A DNA stretch of 64,000 bases from the NCBI RefSeq assembly GCF_007744675.1, contig NZ_CP036269.1:6623046-6687045 (forward strand). The letters run 5' to 3'. Source of the stretch: Gimesia alba. Its GTDB lineage: Bacteria; Planctomycetota; Planctomycetia; Planctomycetales; Planctomycetaceae. This document shows, one piece after another, positions 2,161-15,160 of the stretch. The position numbers and the translations under genes are program-made. The notes under the pieces were generated by a model. That model saw nothing but the letters and a program-made list of their open reading frames with translations. It was not told the DNA's origin and searched no databases. Position 1 is the stretch's first letter, and every line of letters starts with the position of its first letter.

Positions 2161-3276
2161 TTAATTTTGAGTGGTTTTAGGGTTGTCATACAGCCGAAGA
2201 TGAACCGTCTCCCCTTTTTTGGCCGTTGTTCCGGGCTTGGGCAACTGTTGATAAACATGGTAGATAACTTTCGGTTCCGGGGCTGCTGCACCACGGTGGA
2301 TTTCTGGTACGAATCCCATCTTGACTAGCATTTGTTGTGCTGCCTTGTAATCTCTGCCGATCATGGAAGGCACTTTGAACGCCACCTGCTTAACCGGATT
2401 CGGGGTATTCGGCCCTTCGGCAACCGCAGCAACCTTTCCCTGTAATTGATAGTCATCCAGATCCGGGATAAACGGATCTCCTTTCCACCAATCGATGATC
2501 CCTTTCCTCTTATTTGCCACTACATTTTTGAAGACATAAACCGTCGACTGATTACCCCCGGGATGAATCAACTGTACTGCATCCGGTAGATAAGTCTTGG
2601 GGTTTAATTTGACTTTTGCTTCACTGTAGTTGGCAGCATCGGCTCGACGCCTGGGTTTGACGGCAATCACAATTTGTTCCGGTGTATTGACCAGCAATTT
2701 CAGGAAGTAGCGTTTTTTGGCAGTCTCTGCTGGCATCCCAAACAAAAAGGGGAGTGGGCCTTCCATAATATTCGCTCCGCGGCGATCCACCGGAATCGGG
2801 TAAACTTCATAGGATTTTTCGTCTTCGTTAATCGAAAAGATGCGTTTTCCGTCACAGATCCAACATTCATTTTCTCCCGGTTTTAATTGATAGGGTTTTC
2901 CTTCAGCATTGCGTTTGTCGCTGACCGCTCCTTTGGGAATTTCCATCCCGGTAATATCAATCCGCCCCTTATCAGGATGTTCATAATAGAATTTCCCATC
3001 CGAACGTTTTTCCATCTGAAATACATCGTCATACCAGAGGCGAATGTGGTTACCTTGCAGTTTTTCAATTTTTTCCGAATGGTTTTCCCAGTTCTCCAAA
3101 ATCTTTTCCAGCGCGGGAGGTAACTGTTGCACCTTGAGGACAGCACCAGCCGGGTTGGGGCGTGGTTTCCGTTGGTCCAGCTGTGCCTGTACTTCGTTGT
3201 TGATCAGCAGTAACGTGAATGCAGTACAGCAGGTAAAAACGAGTGCTCTTTGCTGTAAAACCAGTTTCGATTTCAT
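2161..3276 (-). CDS. Exported LolA-like planctomycete family protein with C-terminal PASTA domain
   Basis: The protein has 371 residues with a signal peptide (hydrophobic residues about 10-30, ending 'EVQAQ'). The middle section (about 55-280) resembles a planctomycete-restricted paralogous family related to lipoprotein-sorting (LolA-like) folds, with the pattern 'W....I..L.G...R..YD.VF...K...GKFYYE.PDKGR' and a 'ENECWICDGKRIFSI' strand. Residues about 298-366 form a PASTA domain ('VPSMIGRDYKAAQQML...GF.P'), a module that in other bacteria binds peptidoglycan or beta-lactams. The start ATG has AAGGAT upstream. The gene is separated by 239 bases from lptE upstream, so it probably has its own promoter. 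The PASTA call is firm; the family call rests on pattern memory. Confidence 0.8.
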   Translation of the reverse strand: MKSKLVLQQRALVFTCCTAFTLLLINNEVQAQLDQRKPRPNPAGAVLKVQQLPPALEKILENWENHSEKIEKLQGNHIRLWYDDVFQMEKRSDGKFYYEHPDKGRIDITGMEIPKGAVSDKRNAEGKPYQLKPGENECWICDGKRIFSINEDEKSYEVYPIPVDRRGANIMEGPLPFLFGMPAETAKKRYFLKLLVNTPEQIVIAVKPRRRADAANYSEAKVKLNPKTYLPDAVQLIHPGGNQSTVYVFKNVVANKRKGIIDWWKGDPFIPDLDDYQLQGKVAAVAEGPNTPNPVKQVAFKVPSMIGRDYKAAQQMLVKMGFVPEIHRGAAAPEPKVIYHVYQQLPKPGTTAKKGETVHLRLYDNPKTTQN

Positions 3277-4084: not shown

Positions 4085-5533
4085 TTATAGTTTGATTCTT
4101 GCTGGTTCCGGTTCATCTTCCAGAGGAATTTTCCGAATCGGTTCTCCAAATCCTTCCAGTTTCAAACGAGCCGGTGGTTCCAACCCCTGCTGGGCCGGTG
4201 GTGCTTGTTTTGTTGTTGCTGGTACTGGATCTGTTTTTCCAAACCCAGGTAATCCCGGAACGAATGATCTTTTCGGTTCGGGTTGCTGTACCGTCTTTTT
4301 CGGTGTGGCATAGTTTGCCCAAAGATGGCTGGTATTCTCGTCTCCTAACTCTGCCAGTAATTCCCGCGCCTGATTCGCGAACGTGGATGTGGGGTGATTT
4401 TCGATCAGCAGATTACAATAAATGGCCGCTGATTTTGGTTTACCGCGCCGCATCCAGTATTGAACGGTTTCCCAGTCTCGCTTGGCTTTGGCCTTTTCAA
4501 TTTTTTTCAGTTCTTCCTTAAGGCGTGCCTGTTCCGCCTCTGGAAAGAGACGCATGGTGGTCGCTTTGAGATCTCCCGCATCTGTCAACACGGTCGCATC
4601 ATACTGAGGTCCCTGATAGGACATCAGTTTCACATGCGTACCCAGCATGAACGCATCTTTGAGGTGCGGACTTTTCGGGTATTCTTCACGCAACAGACTG
4701 AAAGTGCGGTCGGCATCCATATACCGCCCTTTTTTCAGATAATGGCTGGCAGTCAGCATCAAAGAATCATCGGCCAGTGGTCCGGTCGGGTCATGCAGCC
4801 AGATTGATTTGAGTGCTTCCAGTGCTCGGTTCTCGGTATCGAATACTGGACGCGTGCGATCAAAAAAGTTCGGTACCAGCGCCCATCGTGATTTGCGCGA
4901 CTTGCCGTCACTGGGAATTTCCGGAGTTTCTGAACCGGGTTCTTCCAGGTTCACCTGTTGAATTTCGCTCCCTTTCACAATCGATGGTTCCTGCAGCCAG
5001 TAACGAGCTATTGAGAACAATCGCTTGGTGGTCTGATCCAGATGTCGGGTCGAGGGAAAATCAATCAGCAACTGATCGTAGCTGTCCTGTGCCCAGGAAT
5101 ATTTTTTTTGAGCATACTGGCATTCTGCCACCATGAACTGAGCATCTTCTTTGATTGGGTCATTTTTATATTTTTTGACGATGGCTTTGAATTCCTTCTC
5201 AGCCCGTTTATATTCTTTCGCCACAAATTTTTCATTGGCCTGTTTGTATTCCGCCGCACCGACCGCAGGCTCAATGAACGTGGAATCTTTCTTTCTGTTC
5301 CAGAGTGCAGTCTGCATCACGCGCTGCATCGGTCCGCGTACGCCCTCGATCGATGGATCATCGGTTGCACTCTTTTTAGACCAGGGTGGCTTCAATGCTG
5401 CAAAATCAGAAGTCTGTTCGCCAAACATGGCGCAGCCCGGCAGTAATCCGCAGAGCGCCAGAGCCAGGCAAAGGCACATGCTGCGAGTCACAGAGGGAGA
5501 TTTATTTTGTAAGTCATAAGTGGACATGGTCAT
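4085..5533 (-). CDS. BamD-like outer-membrane assembly lipoprotein with TPR repeats
   Basis: The protein has 482 residues. It is a lipoprotein (signal peptide, lipobox L-P-G-C with Cys34) followed by tetratricopeptide-type repeats at about 95-190 ('EYKRAEKEFKAIVKKYKND', 'YSWAQDSYDQLLIDFPST') and again at about 230-400. BamD is a TPR lipoprotein of the barrel-assembly machine, but it is normally near 250 residues. This one has a second TPR block and a Pro-rich tail of about 80 residues, so the role is by analogy. It sits between recO (31-base gap) and lptE (47-base gap). ATG 5533 and the in-frame ATG two codons on are both usable; an AGGG precedes the second. Confidence 0.8.
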   Translation of the reverse strand: MTMSTYDLQNKSPSVTRSMCLCLALALCGLLPGCAMFGEQTSDFAALKPPWSKKSATDDPSIEGVRGPMQRVMQTALWNRKKDSTFIEPAVGAAEYKQANEKFVAKEYKRAEKEFKAIVKKYKNDPIKEDAQFMVAECQYAQKKYSWAQDSYDQLLIDFPSTRHLDQTTKRLFSIARYWLQEPSIVKGSEIQQVNLEEPGSETPEIPSDGKSRKSRWALVPNFFDRTRPVFDTENRALEALKSIWLHDPTGPLADDSLMLTASHYLKKGRYMDADRTFSLLREEYPKSPHLKDAFMLGTHVKLMSYQGPQYDATVLTDAGDLKATTMRLFPEAEQARLKEELKKIEKAKAKRDWETVQYWMRRGKPKSAAIYCNLLIENHPTSTFANQARELLAELGDENTSHLWANYATPKKTVQQPEPKRSFVPGLPGFGKTDPVPATTKQAPPAQQGLEPPARLKLEGFGEPIRKIPLEDEPEPARIKL

Positions 5534-5564
5534 CCCTGACTTCCACCTGAGGGAAATGAAGTGT

Positions 5565-6311
5565 TTATAGTTGCAGGTAGGGTGCCATTTTAGGACGGCG
5601 CCCCAAGATATGAGACATGGTTGTGGTCAGCAGTTGTCGAATCTCTCGTTGTTGTTGAAGGGATAAGTTCAATCGCTGGGATAGTTGTGTATTTTCGTCT
5701 AACAGCTTTTGCAGTACCGCCACTGTCCCTCGAGAGACACGCACATTTCCGTGTCGCTGTTGTTCACAATGCTGGCAATACAGTCCGCCGTTATTGGCGT
5801 CATAAAGATACGATTCCAACTGTCCTAAATCCTGACTGCATCCGGCACAGTATTCGAACTGAGGAAGTTGGCCGATCTCTTCTAACATGGTTAACTCAAA
5901 TTTTATTAACGCTTTCTGAAAATCATCATGTTCCTGCAATTCGAGTAATACTGCATACGCCGCGTCGAACAGTTCTGGATGAGGATCATATTCCTCAGTC
6001 AGAGCATCCAATAGTTCGGCAATGTAGTAGCCCACATACAGGTTAGAAAGACTTCCAGGATAAGGGCGAAAACGATTCACGAGCTGGGCTTCAGTTAAAA
6101 TATCAAGCCCGCCGGAAGATTTTCGGATGAAGACTATCCGACAAGTGGCCAGCAAGTCAATAGCAGCCTCGAAGGCACTTTTCAGCCGTTTCGCGCCCTT
6201 CGCCAGACTCGCAGTTTTACCAAAATCCCGCGTAAACCAGGTAATGACCTTGCTGGACTCGCTGAAATCAGCGAGCCGAATAATGATACCTTCCGTTTTC
6301 TCATTGGACAT
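5565..6311 (-). CDS. recO: DNA repair protein RecO
   Basis: RecO anneals complementary strands and loads RecA with RecR in RecF-pathway recombination repair. The 248-residue protein has the N-terminal OB fold ('EGIIIRLADFSESSKVITWFTRDFGK', 'LAKGAKR') and the helical C-terminal part. The zinc site is formed by two Cys pairs around residues 152-185 (C-A-G-C and C-Q-H-C). The length is normal. The gene leads the cluster recO / BamD-like / lptE. RecO followed by TPR lipoproteins is a planctomycete arrangement rather than the rnc-era-recO order of proteobacteria. Confidence 0.94.
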   Translation of the reverse strand: MSNEKTEGIIIRLADFSESSKVITWFTRDFGKTASLAKGAKRLKSAFEAAIDLLATCRIVFIRKSSGGLDILTEAQLVNRFRPYPGSLSNLYVGYYIAELLDALTEEYDPHPELFDAAYAVLLELQEHDDFQKALIKFELTMLEEIGQLPQFEYCAGCSQDLGQLESYLYDANNGGLYCQHCEQQRHGNVRVSRGTVAVLQKLLDENTQLSQRLNLSLQQQREIRQLLTTTMSHILGRRPKMAPYLQL

Positions 6312-6499
6312 AAGTCAGGTGCTGCCAGATAAAATTTGCGTTGTTCACTCGATCTGGAATGAGAAGTAAGAGACTCTACGACCGATCCGTCAAACAGGCA
6401 CTGTAGACGTTCTGTGAACTTAGATCGTTCGATTTTAGAGAATCAGCGGCCATTCTGAAAAGGCGAATGGGAATGAATCGTGATTGAGTCTGCGGAATT

Positions 6500-6533
6500 A
6501 AAAAAGCCTGCGAGTCAGCTCGCAGGCTTTTTT
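6500..6533. terminator. Bidirectional intrinsic terminator
   Basis: A 9-bp GC-rich stem (6506-6514 with 6519-6527, loop TCAG) is flanked by an A-run on the left and a six-base T-run on the right, so it can end transcription in both directions. It lies downstream of the leftward small gene at 6600-6908 and shields recO from read-through. Confidence 0.88.
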
Positions 6534-6599
6534 GTTGCTCAGGAGCAACTTGCGCTCAATTGGAGACACTCTGTTAGAAGCAAGAGTGTGTGAGTGATC

Positions 6600-6908
6600 T
6601 TAAAATACGTCAAGTTTAAAGTGATTCCCTTTGTGGTAGGGACGCTCACTGGGATAGAAGTTGTGCCAATCCTGATTGTAGACTGGAATTCTCATATTTT
6701 CCGGATACCGGTAATAGAGATTATCATAGCTCCCCTGTGGTCTCTGAAAGTTCTGGGGATAATACACATAGGGATAATAGTAAAATCGGTTCCAGTCAGT
6801 AGGTTGTCCTCGACCAGCCGCCATTGCATCGGAAGGCGAAAAAGTAGACGTGGCCAACCCAACCACAAACAGGAACAACCCTGCGAGCATGAGACGCCGC
6901 ACCATCAT
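6600..6908 (-). CDS. Small exported Tyr/Pro-rich protein
   Basis: The protein has 102 residues. It begins with a signal peptide (hydrophobic residues 8-24, probable cleavage after 'DAMAA'). The mature part is about 70 residues, very rich in Tyr, Pro, Asn and His ('NRFYYYPYVYYPQNF', 'YDNLYYRYPENMRIP', 'WHNFYPSERPYHKGNHFKLDVF'). The start is ATG 6908 with AAGGAGAG eight bases upstream; the longer frame was discarded for this reason. Small secreted proteins with this kind of C-terminus recur in planctomycetes, but I know no function. It is monocistronic, with its own terminator at 6500-6533. Confidence 0.8.
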   Translation of the reverse strand: MMVRRLMLAGLFLFVVGLATSTFSPSDAMAAGRGQPTDWNRFYYYPYVYYPQNFQRPQGSYDNLYYRYPENMRIPVYNQDWHNFYPSERPYHKGNHFKLDVF

Positions 6909-9075: not shown

Positions 9076-9966
9076 TCAAGAACCTTCCTGGCAAATATCA
9101 ATAAAAAAGGCGGATGCGGTCCAGTGCTTGAACCACTGATGGAGCTGGTGGCCTAACTCGTCCGGTTCGATCAGGCCTGATTCGGAAACTTCCATGATTG
9201 CTTCTCCAACCTGCAATCCCTCCTGCAGCCGGGATAGCAGGAAATATTCTGCGGGGGTCACCGCTTCTCGGCGCACGATAAAGTTGCGGCGTGTAATTGC
9301 CAGACAGGTTGTCTGCTGCGCGAGAATTGCTGGCGTATCCCCGTTTCTGACTTTGGTAATGAATTCGTGGACGGGAAATTGAAACTGCAGCAATCGGAAA
9401 CAGGGCGCCATCTTGAGCGTCAGCCCAGGCCAGTCTTCCGGCGCGATGGAATTTAAGGTCTCTGGTGTCAGTAGTGTTTCCTGTTCGATGCCGGGACCAT
9501 CGAAGACTTCGCTGTAAACGCGCTCCAGCGTGGCGAGATCAATCAAAAAATCAGTCCAGTTGGCTCCATCCTCTCCTGCTTCCACGGCAGGCTTGTGCTC
9601 TCTTAAAAACTTTGGAAACCGGGCTCCCAACTCTCCGAGTGTATAACTGGTAGAAGGAGATTCCTGCAGATACTCCATGCAAAATACACCGAAGGCCTGT
9701 GCCCCCATCGCTGTCACCAAAGCGGGATACTCCTCGCTCAAACATTCAAGAAGACGGGCATAGTAAGCGTTGGCATAGATTCCGACTCGTTCCAGACTTG
9801 TCAGTTGACTGGAACGAGTAATCACAGTTTCCAACGCATCGATGTCCAGCGGAATCCTGCTTTGTGCTGCCTCCGAAGCAATGCCGGCTTCGACGCCGCC
9901 AGGCCAGCTGATCACGGTTTGCATCCAATGCTGAATCTGTTCCAGATCTCGTGATTGATGGTTCAT
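9076..9966 (-). CDS. BufC/HvfC-like partner protein (DUF2063 family)
   Basis: The protein has 296 residues. The N-terminal domain has the DUF2063 signature: 'LTSLERVGIYANAYYARLLECLSEEYPALVTAMGAQAFGVFCMEYL' (about 54-102), a P-S-x-S-Y-T-L-x-x-x-G motif and 'FPKFLREH'. Proteins of this family are encoded beside DUF692 (MNIO) enzymes and are thought to help recognise the precursor peptide. Its start overlaps the MNIO gene's stop by 4 bases (ATGA), showing translational coupling. The C-terminal half (about 200-296), with a winged-helix-like ending, is less conserved. The symbol bufC is not assigned because function in this phylum is untested. Confidence 0.88.
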   Translation of the reverse strand: MNHQSRDLEQIQHWMQTVISWPGGVEAGIASEAAQSRIPLDIDALETVITRSSQLTSLERVGIYANAYYARLLECLSEEYPALVTAMGAQAFGVFCMEYLQESPSTSYTLGELGARFPKFLREHKPAVEAGEDGANWTDFLIDLATLERVYSEVFDGPGIEQETLLTPETLNSIAPEDWPGLTLKMAPCFRLLQFQFPVHEFITKVRNGDTPAILAQQTTCLAITRRNFIVRREAVTPAEYFLLSRLQEGLQVGEAIMEVSESGLIEPDELGHQLHQWFKHWTASAFFIDICQEGS

Positions 9967-10892
9967 TCGAATTCAGCCGTTATAAATGAAGCAGGGTGAG
10001 GAATCGCTGTTGTAGAAGTATCAGCGACTACGTCTTCTGAAATGACCGGTTCCCCAGCCGGCAAATGCTCATCCATATATTTTTGTGCTTTCAGAACTTC
10101 CTGGTGTACGACAGGAAACGGCGGGATATCTGCGTCCCACTCCAGCAGAGTTGAGACACCGCCGGTTCGCTGGTGCATTAACTGAAACAGGTTCCAGACG
10201 GGATCGATTACCCGTCCGTTATGTGTATCAATTAAGTGTGTCCCACAGTTCGTGTGCCCCGCCAGATGACACTGCACAACACGTTCAGCGGGAATGGCTT
10301 CGATGTATTCTACAGGATCAAATTCGTGATTCACGCTGGAGACATACACGTTATTCACATCCAGCAGCAACCCGCAATCCGCTTTTTCCGCCATGCGGCA
10401 GACGAATTCAGACTCGCTCATCGTAGAATCCTGGAATTCGAGATAACTGCTCGGATTTTCCAGAACGAGGGGTCGCTCAAGTATTTCCTGCACAGTCTGA
10501 ATGCGTTTGACGATATGCGCCAGTGTATCTTCGTTGTAGGGGATGGGTAACAGATCGTGTGTATTGCGTCCCGCCACTCCAGTCCAGCAGACATGGTCGG
10601 AAACCCAGCGCGCGTTGACCGACTCGGCCAGTGTTTTCAGCTTCTGCAGGTAGTCGCGGTTCAGCGGGTCGGTGCTGCCAATCGACAGAGAAACGCCGTG
10701 CATCACGATCGGATAGCGTTCGGCAATCTGCTCCAGCACATTCCGGGGCCGGCCGGCGGAGTCCATGAAGTTCTCTGAAATAATTTCAAACCAGTCCACT
10801 TCAGGCTCGTGTTCCAGAATGTGAGAGAAGTGTACGGTTCGCAGACCCACTCCCAAACCCAGATTTTCATGTCCGAGACGTGGTTTCAACAT
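9963..10892 (-). CDS. MNIO-family peptide-modifying enzyme (DUF692, BufB/HvfB-like)
   Basis: DUF692 enzymes are multinuclear non-heme iron oxidases (MbnB, TglH, ChrH, BufB) that modify Cys residues of ribosomal peptides. The 309-residue protein has the TIM-barrel ligand set: 'MHGVSLSIGS' (His), 'SDHVCW' (Asp, His), 'LENPSSY' (Glu), 'LLLDVNNVYV' (Asp, Asn), 'QCHLAGH' (His), 'DTHNGRV' (Asp, His) and 'LLEWDADIP' (Glu). The C-terminal 35 residues, ending 'FITAEFE', are an unconserved tail. It is coupled to the DUF2063 gene by a 4-base overlap and follows a Cys-rich precursor gene across a hairpin. Substrate assignment to that precursor is an inference from gene order. Confidence 0.93.
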   Translation of the reverse strand: MLKPRLGHENLGLGVGLRTVHFSHILEHEPEVDWFEIISENFMDSAGRPRNVLEQIAERYPIVMHGVSLSIGSTDPLNRDYLQKLKTLAESVNARWVSDHVCWTGVAGRNTHDLLPIPYNEDTLAHIVKRIQTVQEILERPLVLENPSSYLEFQDSTMSESEFVCRMAEKADCGLLLDVNNVYVSSVNHEFDPVEYIEAIPAERVVQCHLAGHTNCGTHLIDTHNGRVIDPVWNLFQLMHQRTGGVSTLLEWDADIPPFPVVHQEVLKAQKYMDEHLPAGEPVISEDVVADTSTTAIPHPASFITAEFE

Positions 10893-10964
10893 TAGTGATA
10901 ACTCCTACCCTGAGAACCAACTGGTTACCGGAAGATCACAGGGATATTGCATTCTGGCTGACAT

Positions 10965-11008
10965 GAAAAAGCAGGCTCCTTATCAAACGGGTTGATAGAG
11001 GAGCCTGT
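10965..11008 (-). terminator. Intrinsic terminator / attenuator inside the RiPP operon
   Basis: Read on the minus strand, a GC-rich hairpin (arms about 10972-10986 and 10993-11008, 15 paired bases with a single bulge, 5-7-base loop) is followed by five T residues (plus-strand A-run 10966-10970). It lies between the Cys-rich precursor gene and the MNIO gene. It would let most transcripts stop after the precursor and only a fraction read through to the two modification genes. Confidence 0.82.
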
Positions 11009-11030
11009 CTTGGTTGTCTTGGATCAAAGG

Positions 11031-11546
11031 TTATTCCTTTTTGGCAGCGGGAGCAGGACCTACTTTTTTGCCTGCTTTCTCCATTGCTTTTTCGAACTCG
11101 GCGCGGGCCAGTTTCCAGGCGTCTTCCATCAATGGAATGTGGCAAGACCCTTTTCCTTTGCAGGAGTTCATGCCAGGGTTTGTACCACAGCCACCTTGCC
11201 CTTTGCATTCATTCGAGCCGGCACAGGCATGTTCTGCCACCGTAGCACAAGCCCCCAGACCGGCACAATCATTTTCCACACCGGCGTAGGTTCCTTTGCA
11301 GGTATTGAGACCACGACAGACATGAGGCTCTTTCATCAGCAGGCTGACATCCTTATCGGTCGTCTCATCTGCAGCATGATCATGCTCGTCCTTGGTCGAG
11401 CTGCCAGCTTCTGCATCGGTAGCAGGAGTCTTGGGTGCCGGAGGGGCCGGTTTTTGACAACCGGTCATCGAACCAGCCACCATTCCGCCAAATGCTGCAA
11501 TGGTCAGTCGGTTAAAATCGCGTCGATTGATATCGGGACGTTTCAT
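11031..11546 (-). CDS. Cys-rich Tat lipoprotein, candidate bufferin-like RiPP precursor
   Basis: The protein has 171 residues. It carries a twin-arginine signal (R8-R9 in 'NRRDFNRLTIAAFGG') ending in a lipobox-like M-T-G-C (Cys30), then an Ala/Pro and acidic linker. The core holds nine Cys at 77, 83, 94, 100, 108, 114, 120, 129 and 135. All but one neighbouring spacing inside the groups is Cys-x5-Cys, and most match C-x-G-x-x-x-C ('CRGLNTC', 'CAGLGAC', 'CAGSNEC', 'CKGQGGC', 'CKGKGSC'). A Lys/Ala-rich tail follows. Such Cys arrays next to MNIO and DUF2063 genes mark bufferin-type copper-buffering peptides. A GAGGT ribosome binding site precedes the ATG. Modification and metal binding are predictions. 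Confidence 0.82.
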   Translation of the reverse strand: MKRPDINRRDFNRLTIAAFGGMVAGSMTGCQKPAPPAPKTPATDAEAGSSTKDEHDHAADETTDKDVSLLMKEPHVCRGLNTCKGTYAGVENDCAGLGACATVAEHACAGSNECKGQGGCGTNPGMNSCKGKGSCHIPLMEDAWKLARAEFEKAMEKAGKKVGPAPAAKKE

Positions 11547-11878
11547 GGATTACCTCAGAGTTTCGATTAGGGGATTGATGAAAGTGAAATTTAAGCATGA
11601 GACTAAACAGAGATTCCCTTATGTTCTGTGAGTTATCTCACATTTCCAGCAGAATTTAAACTGCGGATTCTCAATTTCAGCCAAAATTCCCATAGCTTTT
11701 TGCAGCAATTTGCGGTTGTTAACTCACTTGATTTTACCGGGTTTACGAAACAGGGGCTCCTGAAACACAACGGTCTCAAGAAGAGTTGTACGTTAACTCA
11801 CAGATTCAAATTTCAAGAAGCTCGATAATTGATCCAGACGCAAACAACATTCTTTATTCATGGAGGATCACAGGAATC
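11547..11878. promoter_or_regulatory. Divergent regulatory region with repeated GTTAWCTCAC motif
   Basis: This stretch separates the leftward RiPP operon from the rightward DUF547 gene. The sequence TGTGA-N6-TCACA at 11627-11642 is a perfect 16-base palindrome of the CRP/FNR-superfamily type. Part of it (GTTATCTCACA, 11632-11642) recurs as GTTAACTCAC at 11718-11727 and GTTAACTCACA at 11792-11802. The three occurrences suggest a shared regulator site, but no regulator gene is adjacent. Confidence 0.5.
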
Positions 11879-12724
11879 ATGTCAGGATTGAAATCGCTCT
11901 CAATGTCAGTCGTGCGGGCACTTGGAATCATGTTGCTCAGTATGCCTCAAAGTCATCGTGGGGAAGCTGCAGAAGCGATCGGGCAACGCTGGCCTGCCAG
12001 TCAACAGATCTCGATGTCACAGGTTGATCACAGCACCTTTGATCGACTGTTAAAAAAGTACGTCGATACGAAAGGCATGGTTAATTATGAAGCGTGGAAA
12101 GCATCTCAAACAGATCGGCGTGCTCTACAGAATTATCTAAAGCTGCTCAGTCGGGCCAACCCACGTGCGACAGCACCGAAACAGGCTCGGCTCGCTTTCT
12201 GGATCAATGCCTACAACGCAGTCACACTAGAGGGAATCATGCAGGTTTATCCCACTACCAGCATTCGAAATCATACAGCGAAAGTATTCGGATATAACAT
12301 CTGGGACGATCTCCCCCTGAATGTCGGCGGAAAAAATTACTCTTTAAACCAAATAGAACACGAAATTTTACGTAAGATGAATGAGCCCCGTATTCATTTT
12401 GCAATTGTCTGTGCTTCCATCGGCTGTCCAAAGCTGAGAAACGAAGCCTATACAACGGAAAAAGTTGATGCACAATTGACTGCTAACGCGATTGATTTCT
12501 TTCAGCAAAAGAAACATTTTCAGATCAAACCAACTCAAAGAACTGTACACCTCAGCTCAATTCTGGACTGGTTCGCGACTGATTTCGGATCAACGCAATC
12601 GGAACAGCTTCACTATATTGCTAAATTTGCCCCAGAGGCATCACGGTCTTTTTTGATAACTCCGAATGTGACCGTGAAGTATCTGGACTACAACTGGGGG
12701 TTGAATCACCAACCATCACGTTGA
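11879..12724 (+). CDS. DUF547 family exported protein
   Basis: The protein has 281 residues with an N-terminal hydrophobic segment (about 8-25) that should export it. The DUF547 domain covers about 95-240: 'RLAFWINAYNAVTLEGIMQVYPTTSI', 'WDDLPLNVGGKNYSLNQIEHEILR', 'RIHFAIVCASIGCPKLRNEAYTTEKV'. The family is found with thiol or metal-related genes, and its conserved Cys-Ala-Ser-x-Gly-Cys and His-Phe-Ala motifs look like an active site, but no reaction is established. The start is ATG 11879, with AGGA upstream, rather than the earlier frame that lacks a signal peptide. It is divergent from the RiPP operon and on the same strand as the thioredoxin-YHS gene (230 bases). Confidence 0.85.
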   Translation: MSGLKSLSMSVVRALGIMLLSMPQSHRGEAAEAIGQRWPASQQISMSQVDHSTFDRLLKKYVDTKGMVNYEAWKASQTDRRALQNYLKLLSRANPRATAPKQARLAFWINAYNAVTLEGIMQVYPTTSIRNHTAKVFGYNIWDDLPLNVGGKNYSLNQIEHEILRKMNEPRIHFAIVCASIGCPKLRNEAYTTEKVDAQLTANAIDFFQQKKHFQIKPTQRTVHLSSILDWFATDFGSTQSEQLHYIAKFAPEASRSFLITPNVTVKYLDYNWGLNHQPSR

Positions 12725-12954: not shown

Positions 12955-13767
12955 ATGCGTGCCAAACAGTTTATTGTTTTTTCAATCAGTTTGATTTTCA
13001 TTCAAACAATCTCCTCACATGTTCAGGGAGAAGAAATCCATTGGCAGACCAATTTAAAACAGGCCGCCCAACAGGCTCGGGCTGAAAATAAGGCTATGCT
13101 GATTCAAATTGGGGCGACTTGGTGTGGGTTTTGCCATAAGATGGAAAAAGAGACTTACAAAGATCCAAAAGTTATCAAACACGTCAATTCCTGCTTCATT
13201 CCAATTCGTGTCGACGCCGATCAGAATGCTGAGCTCGTCGAAGCCATCGGCGTTGCCGGGTTACCCACCACTGCGATTATCACTCCGCAACTGAAGATCG
13301 TAAAAAAGATTTCAGGCTATGTCGCTGCTCCGGAAATGGAAGGGCATCTCAATAAAATCTGCCTGGCAACTCACGAACAGGAAGCATCACCTCGTTCTAA
13401 GCAACCCATCAAAAAGATGAGCGAAAAAAAGGTGACGACGGAATTTGCCTTCAAAGGGATTTGTCTGGTCAGCATGCTGGACGAGCAAGAGCTGGTCGAA
13501 GGACAGCCAAAAATTTCATCTGAATACAAAGGGCGTAAAATCTGCTTTGCCTCTATGGAACACAAACAGCAATTCGACTCCAACCCGGATCGCTATTGGC
13601 CTGCCTTTGAAGGGCAGTGTCGTGTTTCCAAGCTGGATCAAAATCAATCTGTGGAAGGCGATCCACATGCAGGCGGCGTCTATCGGGAAAAACTGGTCTT
13701 CTTCTCTTCTGCCGCAGAGCGGGATCGGTTCTCGTCTAACCCATCCTACTATCTACTGCAAAAATAA
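12955..13767 (+). CDS. Exported thioredoxin fused to two YHS/TRASH-like repeats
   Basis: The protein has 270 residues with a signal peptide (residues 1-25). A thioredoxin fold of the DsbD-gamma/thioredoxin_7 type spans about 28-135, with redox motif W-C-G-F-C (Cys57, Cys60) and the cis-Pro region 'GVAGLPTTAII'. Two copies of a repeat of about 50 residues follow (about 163-215 and 216-270), each with 'F.G.C.VS.LD....VEG.P', a 'Y.....F.S' strand and 'F.SNP..Y'. This is the same repeat found three times in the convergent protein at 13897-14793. The second copy keeps its Cys but lacks the paired Cys. It is probably periplasmic; a thiol reductase for Cys-rich or metal-binding partners is an inference. 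Confidence 0.87.
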   Translation: MRAKQFIVFSISLIFIQTISSHVQGEEIHWQTNLKQAAQQARAENKAMLIQIGATWCGFCHKMEKETYKDPKVIKHVNSCFIPIRVDADQNAELVEAIGVAGLPTTAIITPQLKIVKKISGYVAAPEMEGHLNKICLATHEQEASPRSKQPIKKMSEKKVTTEFAFKGICLVSMLDEQELVEGQPKISSEYKGRKICFASMEHKQQFDSNPDRYWPAFEGQCRVSKLDQNQSVEGDPHAGGVYREKLVFFSSAAERDRFSSNPSYYLLQK

Positions 13768-13896: not shown

Positions 13897-14793
13897 CTAT
13901 TGAACCTTTTCAATCGACTGCGGTTCAAGCCAGACAAATTTGCCTTTTTGTGCAATTTGCTTCCCTTTCACGCTGATTTTCAGACTCTCGAAACGCTGCT
14001 TGTAAAGATCGGGGTGTGAATCATGGGCGCCTTCGATGACATAGATCTTGCCGTCATCACTTTTCACAGCCAGCCCTAACGTGTTCGGATCTTTTTTGGG
14101 ATGCACTCCATACTCACAAGCAGCGCAACCCGTTGTTCCTTTGATAGAAACCAGTTGAGAGGCAGGAGCAGTCGTACTGCTTGTGCTTTGAGCTCCCGCT
14201 TTTTTGCCGACGTATTTAGCAGGATTGGACTGAAATTTCTGCATCACAGCTGCACTGGGAAACTGGTAACGCATACCTTTGTAAATCGCTGTGAATTCCG
14301 GCTTACCAGGAACGTCTTTTCCACCATCGACTTTGCACACAATACATTTCCCGTCGCACGCCAGATCGACGTCGGCATATTTCTGTGGCGATCGATCAAA
14401 AATAGATTTGATCTGGGGATTCGGGAAGAGGAATACCCGTCCCTGATAAAAACTCACGTGATCAATCTTGCCGGGATTCCGGACGCCGTCATGATGAGCA
14501 AAACAGACAGAGCAATCACCGTTCAACGCGGGAGCATACTTTGCCGGGTTGGCAGTAAACACATCTTTGATTTCCTCTGAAGGGAACAGATAGGTCTGAC
14601 CGTCATAAACAACGGAATGTTCTGCAGTCCCTTTGACGACTTTCTGACCTTTCACCAGACAGACGGCACAATGACCATTGAGCGCAACAGGGGCCTCTTT
14701 CGACTTCTGATTTTCTTTGGCTTCAAGACCCTGACTGAATAAAGCAAGGGATGCCAGCAAGGCGGCGGTCTTTACGAATCGGGTTAACTTCAT
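13897..14793 (-). CDS. Exported protein with three CxxC YHS/TRASH-like repeats
   Basis: The protein has 298 residues with a signal peptide (about 1-25). Three tandem repeats span about 38-195, each starting with a Cys-x-x-Cys ('GHCAVCLV', 'GDCSVCFA', 'GKCIVCKV') and ending with an aromatic strand ('YLFPS', 'FLFPN', 'YQFPS') and 'F...P.KY'. This is a metal-binding zinc-ribbon-like layout of the YHS/TRASH class. After a Ser/Thr/Ala linker, a C-terminal domain (about 222-298) carries another C-A-A-C and a beta-rich 'KIYVIEGAHDS' segment. The start is ATG 14793 because AGGAGAAG lies upstream. Metal storage, delivery or sensing in the periplasm is plausible; the ligand is unknown. Confidence 0.85.
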   Translation of the reverse strand: MKLTRFVKTAALLASLALFSQGLEAKENQKSKEAPVALNGHCAVCLVKGQKVVKGTAEHSVVYDGQTYLFPSEEIKDVFTANPAKYAPALNGDCSVCFAHHDGVRNPGKIDHVSFYQGRVFLFPNPQIKSIFDRSPQKYADVDLACDGKCIVCKVDGGKDVPGKPEFTAIYKGMRYQFPSAAVMQKFQSNPAKYVGKKAGAQSTSSTTAPASQLVSIKGTTGCAACEYGVHPKKDPNTLGLAVKSDDGKIYVIEGAHDSHPDLYKQRFESLKISVKGKQIAQKGKFVWLEPQSIEKVQ

Positions 14794-15160
14794 CGACTTC
14801 TCCTGAAAAACTTGGGTTCTACGGTTTGGGGTTGGGGCCGTTTTGTTTGCATGACTAAAAAAAATCGAACTGATAGCGGGTTGCTCAATTCCAGTTCGTT
14901 TCTCATTTGTCACAGACCAAGTATGACTGGAGTACTGGGTTCAATCTGTGGTGTATTTCACAGTCGTACTCTTTTTTCGATTTCTTCTCTCAATCAGAGT
15001 TCAGACTTCGGTTGCTCCTGGGCGTGAGACAACCTCCGATAAACCGGTATTGCATCAATTGGCCAAGTATTGATAATCAGAGCTCTCTCCAAAACAAAAA
15101 GACTTACAGACATTTCTCAAGTCCTCTCTTACTCTCCAGTTATAAAAAATCAGGTGCCTT
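14794..15160. other. Divergent intergenic region, nothing recognised
   Basis: The region lies between the leftward triple-YHS gene and the rightward zinc-ribbon gene and must hold both promoters. No clear -35/-10 pair, operator or RNA structure could be picked out. Confidence 0.3.

Follow-up and report, generated by a model that had tools for sequence, protein, structure and literature searches.

A 64,000-nucleotide stretch of the Gimesia alba genome (contig NZ_CP036269.1, positions 6,623,046 to 6,687,045), referred to here as the window, encodes on its minus strand a Cys-rich precursor, an enzyme of the MNIO (DUF692) family and a DUF2063 partner. The three genes form an operon of the bufferin (captophorin) type, the precursor of which probably leaves the cytoplasm by the twin-arginine translocation (Tat) pathway, judging from its signal. 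The genes and the segments of the precursor are as follows, in window positions.

11031–11546, minus strand: precursor gene (171 residues), comprising a Tat-type signal with a lipobox-like motif, a linker, a nine-Cys core and a C-terminal segment
11457..11546, minus strand: leader of the precursor, with RRDF (residues 8–11), an AxxGxxxG stretch (residues 18–25) and the lipobox-like MTGC (Cys30)
11142..11318, minus strand: nine-Cys core (residues 77–135), each Cys of which is kept in 71 or 72 of 72 homologues from the taxonomic family of the host
11049..11135, minus strand: conserved C-terminal segment (P138, W144, R148, E152, M155, G163)
9963–10892, minus strand: MNIO (DUF692) gene of BufB type (PF05114, NF050167)
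9076–9966, minus strand: partner gene, DUF2063 plus NGO1945_C (PME type 1, BufC/HvfC-like; PF09836, PF22106)

The genes lie head to tail in the order precursor, MNIO, partner, and the last two overlap by 4 nucleotides (9963–9966). The MNIO scores 366 bits with NF050167 (MNIO_BufB), above the cut-off of 310, and 371 bits with PF05114; its best match among solved structures is 3BWW. The partner lies above the cut-offs of PF09836 (59 bits) and PF22106 (32.8 bits), and under the cut-off of 142 bits of the narrower NF050145 HvfC model (53.6 bits). No DoxX-like open reading frame (ORF) was found between positions 3001 and 19000 with a hidden Markov model (HMM) built from three DoxX proteins. An earlier, sequence-only reading of this DNA had described the gene order and coordinates, the overlap, the identities of the enzyme and its partner, the lack of a DoxX-type gene and the bufferin-type layout, all of which were confirmed here; it did not give the strand. 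Since the Cys array, the RR motif and the gene order were found again in relatives, the pattern is not a product of chance. Weak DoxX-like matches occur in the stretches of a few relatives, including loci L084, L102, L244 and L260; at L084, L244 and L260 the MNIO is flanked on both sides by precursor genes.

The precursor begins with MKRPDINRRDFNRLTIAAFGGMVAGSMTGC, which contains RRxF and the lipobox-like MTGC; a lipobox with Met at position −3 is less usual. The motif RRx[FLIMVW] is present in all 128 distinct full-length nine-Cys homologues, and RRxF in 124 of them, whereas a lipobox-like motif, even by a loose pattern, was found in 91. Among 72 precursors from the taxonomic family, both Arg residues are kept in all 72 and the lipobox Cys in 58, and ten loci whose titles name Verrucomicrobia, Verrucomicrobiales or Limisphaerales, which are counted among the 128, carry RR throughout and, by a script pattern, no lipobox (0/10). 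Across these sequences, the RR motif is a constant trait of the family and the lipobox is a variable one. Because the HMM used to choose the 128 homologues (L103, L139, L202 and L269 are left out by score, length or name) includes the leader, a second HMM covering just the Cys core and the C-terminal part was applied to guard against circularity. Of its 131 matches with a score of at least 90 bits, 129 carry RR within 130 residues before the core, and in the other two (L139 and L269) the sequence ends 10 residues before the core; among weaker matches (30–60 bits, mostly of the 12-Cys type described below), RR is present in 12 of 29. The alignment of the 72 leaves out L103 (partial, at a contig end) and L139, in which signal and core are in separate pieces; in L139 (genome G031) and its named copy L202, a stop lies between the two. 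TatC is encoded in the genome.

Bufferin precursors are presented as Sec-exported in PMC12452194, with approximately 16% of Buf2 members predicted to be lipoproteins, and its Discussion states that a mechanism is needed to stop Sec export of the precursors before modification. Judged by motif, a Sec signal as described there was not found on the window precursor, which carries RRxF instead. The main text of that paper mentions neither Tat, twin-arginine nor Planctomycetes. The text of PMC12636315, which reports predicted lipidated bufferins and the production of a lipidated oxazolin, contains no mention of Tat or twin-arginine, and PMC13097082 does not mention Tat. No Tat-routed MNIO product was found among the papers listed from the literature searched, which includes few subscription papers and so does not prove absence; in the one listed paper that contains both bufferins and twin-arginine, the passages on them are separate. 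The new element is the Tat-type signal on a bufferin-type precursor. The sequence-only reading had recognized both the twin-arginine signal and the lipobox and had called the precursor unusual on this account, a view that holds for the signal but not for lipidation, which has already been described (PMC12452194; PMC12636315) and for which the lipobox is present in only part of the family.

The conservation of the leader extends well past RRxF. With the first Arg as position 0, 119 of 131 precursors combine Ala at 10 with Gly at 13 and Gly at 17, a combination absent from 25 other Tat signals encoded in the genome (the readable ones from 30 other loci); Fisher p-values for this comparison take no account of kinship and are given no weight. 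The looser AxxGxxxG is present in 122 of 131 precursors versus 2 of 25 other Tat signals. Other Planctomycetota have Sec-type precursors, and 11 of 13 of these contain it too; the 13 were hand-picked, with some start codons uncertain and loci with unclear leaders left out, and shuffling their leaders gave a mean of 0.77 and a maximum of 4. In PMC13419390, HvfA deprived of its signal is poorly modified and signal peptides serve HvfBC as leaders. Because AxxGxxxG is common to Sec-type relatives and rare in other Tat signals, the precursor signal probably doubles as an enzyme-recognition leader, in which the hydrophobic motif would serve recognition and RR would be the export address.

A different explanation is that RR is kept because the MNIO–partner complex reads it, export being by Sec and the product an ordinary, often lipidated, Buf2-like bufferin. 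The precedent of HvfBC and the breadth of leader conservation are in its favor, as is the lack of a match to the general Tat model TIGR01409. However, RRxF agrees with the Tat motif and RR is kept even where the lipobox is missing; furthermore, AxxGxxxG persists in Sec-type relatives that lack RRxF, and the leader motif common to both groups therefore does not depend on RR. We regard this explanation as quite unlikely.

Several observations weigh against a Tat-exported product of a bufferin-type operon. TIGR01409 gave no match to the window precursor at E ≤ 1 and matches just 4 of 46 precursor relatives at E ≤ 0.01, and the precursor is absent from a genome scan with this model (97 matches; 150 of 221 candidates scored). 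The retention of RR for recognition by the partner is a possibility. The structure model of the precursor is poor (mean pLDDT 57.8), with a helix at residues 141–157 within the C-terminal segment. Near 15 of 93 MNIOs of Tat-type loci, some of them at contig ends, the partner was not found. No copper genes were recognized by eye among the recurrent neighbors, which are mostly unannotated. In addition, membership of BufA2 had to be rejected for the window precursor, which scores 27.5 bits with NF050166, under the cut-off of 60; two plasmid comparators score 92.5 and 83.1 bits.

The precursor contains ten Cys, namely Cys30 of the lipobox and nine core Cys (77, 83, 94, 100, 108, 114, 120, 129 and 135). 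Of the eight gaps that separate the core Cys, five span five residues, and each of these reads C-x-G-x-x-x-C, in agreement with the initial description of a nine-Cys array mostly spaced by five. Nine Cys follow residue 45 in 115 of the 128 homologues. At E ≤ 0.01, 42 of 46 precursor homologues match NF050166. BufA1 (DUF2282, PF10048) was likewise rejected, with no match to the precursor or in its own genome and presence in only 1 of 120 genomes of the taxonomic family. Since the precursor lies below the BufA2 cut-off and has no DUF2282 match, it is, on sequence grounds, a family separate from BufA1 and BufA2. The score with DUF7640 (PF24646) was under the cut-off, and no match to the precursor was found on plasmids or phages. 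At L289 (G242), two short Tat-type ORFs with 5 and 8 Cys in the frames shown precede the MNIO, possibly as a minimal form.

The co-occurrence of precursor and enzyme was examined in the 120 genomes, which are kin, such that the counts are not independent events. An MNIO was found in 76 of them and the precursor in 65. In this sample the precursor never occurs without the enzyme: its 65 genomes are all among the 76, and it is absent from the 44 that lack an MNIO. The sequence-only reading had proposed this comparison and held that precursors without any MNIO gene in most genomes would refute its interpretation; the genomes show the opposite. Precursor genomes contain an MNIO at 344 bits or more, except for G019 and G041, in which it is cut at contig ends, and the best MNIO scores in the 11 genomes with an MNIO only are at most 296.8 bits. 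The sampled genomes of genera g5, g34 and g47 carry both genes or neither, as far as tabulated. Among 343 genomes sampled from the phylum, 57 had a precursor match and 52 of these an MNIO, which was present in all 44 with a match at E ≤ 1e-8 (counted by eye); in the five without it (G264, G279, G327, G330 and G359), no precursor match is better than E 2e-7, and three cover nothing but the N-terminus. An MNIO lies within the fetched stretch of 55 named loci among the best 80 of 392 confirmed relatives.

The two genes are linked in 47 of the 65 genomes and solely unlinked in 18 (seven genera), and the operon described by the earlier reading, in which the three genes are indeed adjacent in the window, is not constant in this respect. 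Contig breaks are unlikely to be the sole cause, as G096 and G094 carry precursor and MNIO inside long contigs. The unlinked genes, together with the 5 of 57 phylum-sample genomes without an MNIO, all with weak precursor matches, might mean that the MNIO does not act on the precursor, which would then be an unmodified Cys-rich exported protein. This appears very improbable: co-occurrence is complete with the unlinked cases included, DUF2282 is almost absent, and no other Cys-rich precursor was seen by eye (ORFs of at least 40 residues) beside the 15 inspected of 19 MNIOs without a local precursor, so that another local substrate was rejected for these rows.

PMC13419390 reports that D242 and H244 of HvfB are required for activity. 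These residues align with D222 and H224 of the window MNIO, and N175 probably corresponds to N180 (same offset). All 145 aligned MNIOs, with 8 distant ones left out, conserve D222, H224, N180, E145, N181, H209, E251 and D253; of the full ligand set ascribed to the enzyme from sequence alone, the part that was mapped is matched by these conserved His, Glu, Asp and Asn residues. The site of FonB F250 is Ala254 in the window MNIO, directly after Asp253 (LLEWDA), and not the Asp that is the criterion of Cys-Lys captophorins. Ala occupies this site in 86 of 93 MNIOs of Tat-type loci, 19 of 19 without a local precursor and 6 of 19 that are Sec-labeled. Because Ala is also present in the latter, it is a better marker of the MNIO clade than of Tat.

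A quick tree of 151 MNIOs (L132, L173 and L115 left out, long branches flagged) places the Tat nine-Cys group, the MNIOs without a local precursor and a 12-Cys-type group, in which Sec and Tat are mixed, in a clade of 134 rows (support 98). Some Sec labels in this tree and the next are assumed: those of L317–L320 come from DUF2282 annotation and the literature, a leader having been seen for L317 alone, L321 had no precursor seen, and L277 and L285 have unclear leaders. In a careful tree of 35 rows, nine-Cys rows are separate from 12-Cys-type rows (94/93), and Sec rows surround a nine-row clade (98/97) that contains the seven 12-Cys-type Tat rows. Repeated independent switching between Tat and Sec within the 12-Cys group was considered and rejected: the quick tree needs 5 switches overall, but the careful tree 3, of which 2 are inside the group, and the test gives no grounds to reject a single clade of 12-Cys Tat rows (p-AU 0.459). 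Tat-type signals are thus present in two separate places of the MNIO tree, where gain and loss are indistinguishable.

A second MNIO of the same genome lies at locus L157 (G000:C1:245500-257000; 5292-6248, minus strand), after an ORF (6112-6867, minus strand) with a C-terminal CGSSCGSSC-type tail and before an ORF of 204 residues. Neither flanking ORF has a Pfam or NCBIfam match; the locus recalls the TIGR04222/PME-type-2 clusters of the literature, a likeness supported by no model. At L314:603-2927 (Pseudoalteromonas sp. NC201) and L279:80-1981 (G163), a ferritin-like domain (PF12902) is followed by a bufferin-like Cys region in a large protein with no evident signal, encoded directly before the MNIO; these are possible cytoplasmic MNIO substrates. 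The L279 protein also has a weak VioB match and a C-terminal FARIRFEERM segment.

The window operon can be compared with several known systems. With Buf2/BufA2 bufferins (Cys-Lys captophorins), it shares the order precursor–MNIO–partner, the BufB-type MNIO, the DUF2063 partner and CKG motifs; it differs in a precursor below the BufA2 cut-off with nine core Cys and a C-terminal segment, in a Tat-type instead of a Sec signal and in Ala where these have Asp at the F250 site. Lipidated MNIO products (DAG-RiPPs, such as DybA and NedA) also have a lipobox on the precursor, but are presented in PMC12636315 as SPII lipoproteins. Oxazolin (HvfABC) and fontiphorin (Lys-Cys captophorins) share the MNIO, the PME1 partner and catalytic residues, and the export signal of HvfA also acts as a leader; they differ in EGKCG repeats and Phe at the F250 site, in the Sec signal of HvfA and in the DoxX-like HvfX of the hvf operon. 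The 12-Cys-type precursors of other Planctomycetota (for example, L281 and L301) share the MNIO clade and the AxxGxxxG leader stretch, whereas their six-Cys array is duplicated in most, their signals are partly Sec and partly Tat, and the C-terminal segment was not seen by eye.

Upstream of the operon, the following features were found.

11627..11642: TGTGAGATAACTCACA, candidate Crp-type operator with perfect 6-base inverted arms, 80 nucleotides upstream of the precursor start
11787..11802: TGTGAGTTAACGTACA, weaker copy of the operator with 2 mismatches to the pattern, near the divergent DUF547 gene
11879..12724, plus strand: divergent DUF547 gene (PF04784), a possible associate

The first of these, which resembles the CRP site of Escherichia coli, has its sole exact match in the single-contig, 7.77 Mb genome here and lies within a 21-base block identical in 11 upstream stretches (the window, five same-genus genomes and five named close relatives). 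An exact TGTGA-N6-TCACA occurs at most 300 nucleotides upstream of 10 of 71 precursors from the taxonomic family (0.1 in local shuffles), six of which are from the same genus and the others L074, L077, L092 and L096; with at most one mismatch it occurs upstream of 19 of 71 (0.8 in local shuffles). The presence of this candidate site suggests control by a Crp/Fnr-family regulator, and a Crp-type gene lies in the fetched stretches of three genera (that of L079 confirmed by Pfam). The same operator was rejected as a feature of MNIOs without a local precursor, upstream of which it is not enriched (one mismatch or fewer in 1 of 19, versus 0.2 expected). DUF547 homologs occur in the fetched stretches of six genera, that of the window included. 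Near the operon are also a thioredoxin-like protein with a weak YHS match (12955-13767, plus strand) and a protein with three YHS stretches (13897-14913, minus strand), and an RND-transporter-like ORF was seen by eye near precursors in two genera, one case being L081 (G012).

The following mechanism is proposed. The DUF2063/RRE partner would bind the leader of the precursor, mainly at the hydrophobic AxxGxxxG stretch, as in the Sec-leader precedent, and the MNIO would oxidize some of the Cys in the nine-Cys core, with 5-thiooxazoles as the probable products. Through RRxF, the Tat translocase would then take over the modified domain, which may already be folded or contain disulfide bonds; lipidation at Cys30, as the motif predicts, would tether this domain to the periplasmic face of a membrane, where it may buffer copper or another soft metal; a Crp/Fnr-family regulator would control the operon via the Crp-type site. 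Copper is bound by the characterized products of the MNIO–PME1 group, according to PMC12452194 and PMC13097082. It is nevertheless conceivable, if somewhat unlikely, that the product is modified and Tat-exported as proposed but serves another metal or redox stress: no copper gene was recognized by eye near the operons, the window neighbors are thioredoxin-like and YHS proteins, and the substrate-site residue of the MNIO differs from that of the described Cys-Lys class. This alternative is otherwise compatible with Tat export from a bufferin-type operon.

Tat carries folded cargo, and cytoplasmic copper loading before export is therefore conceivable. The peptide could be modified, folded and copper-loaded in the cytoplasm and then exported as a metal complex, acting as a copper exporter and not as a periplasmic buffer filled after export; we consider this version unlikely.

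The precursors described here represent a distinct family for Planctomycetota and Verrucomicrobiota. If the proposal is true, Tat routing would explain how a signal-bearing ribosomally synthesized and post-translationally modified peptide escapes export before its modification. The presence of a Tat-type family beside Sec-type sister lineages with the same leader motif makes this question of premature export testable by leader swaps.

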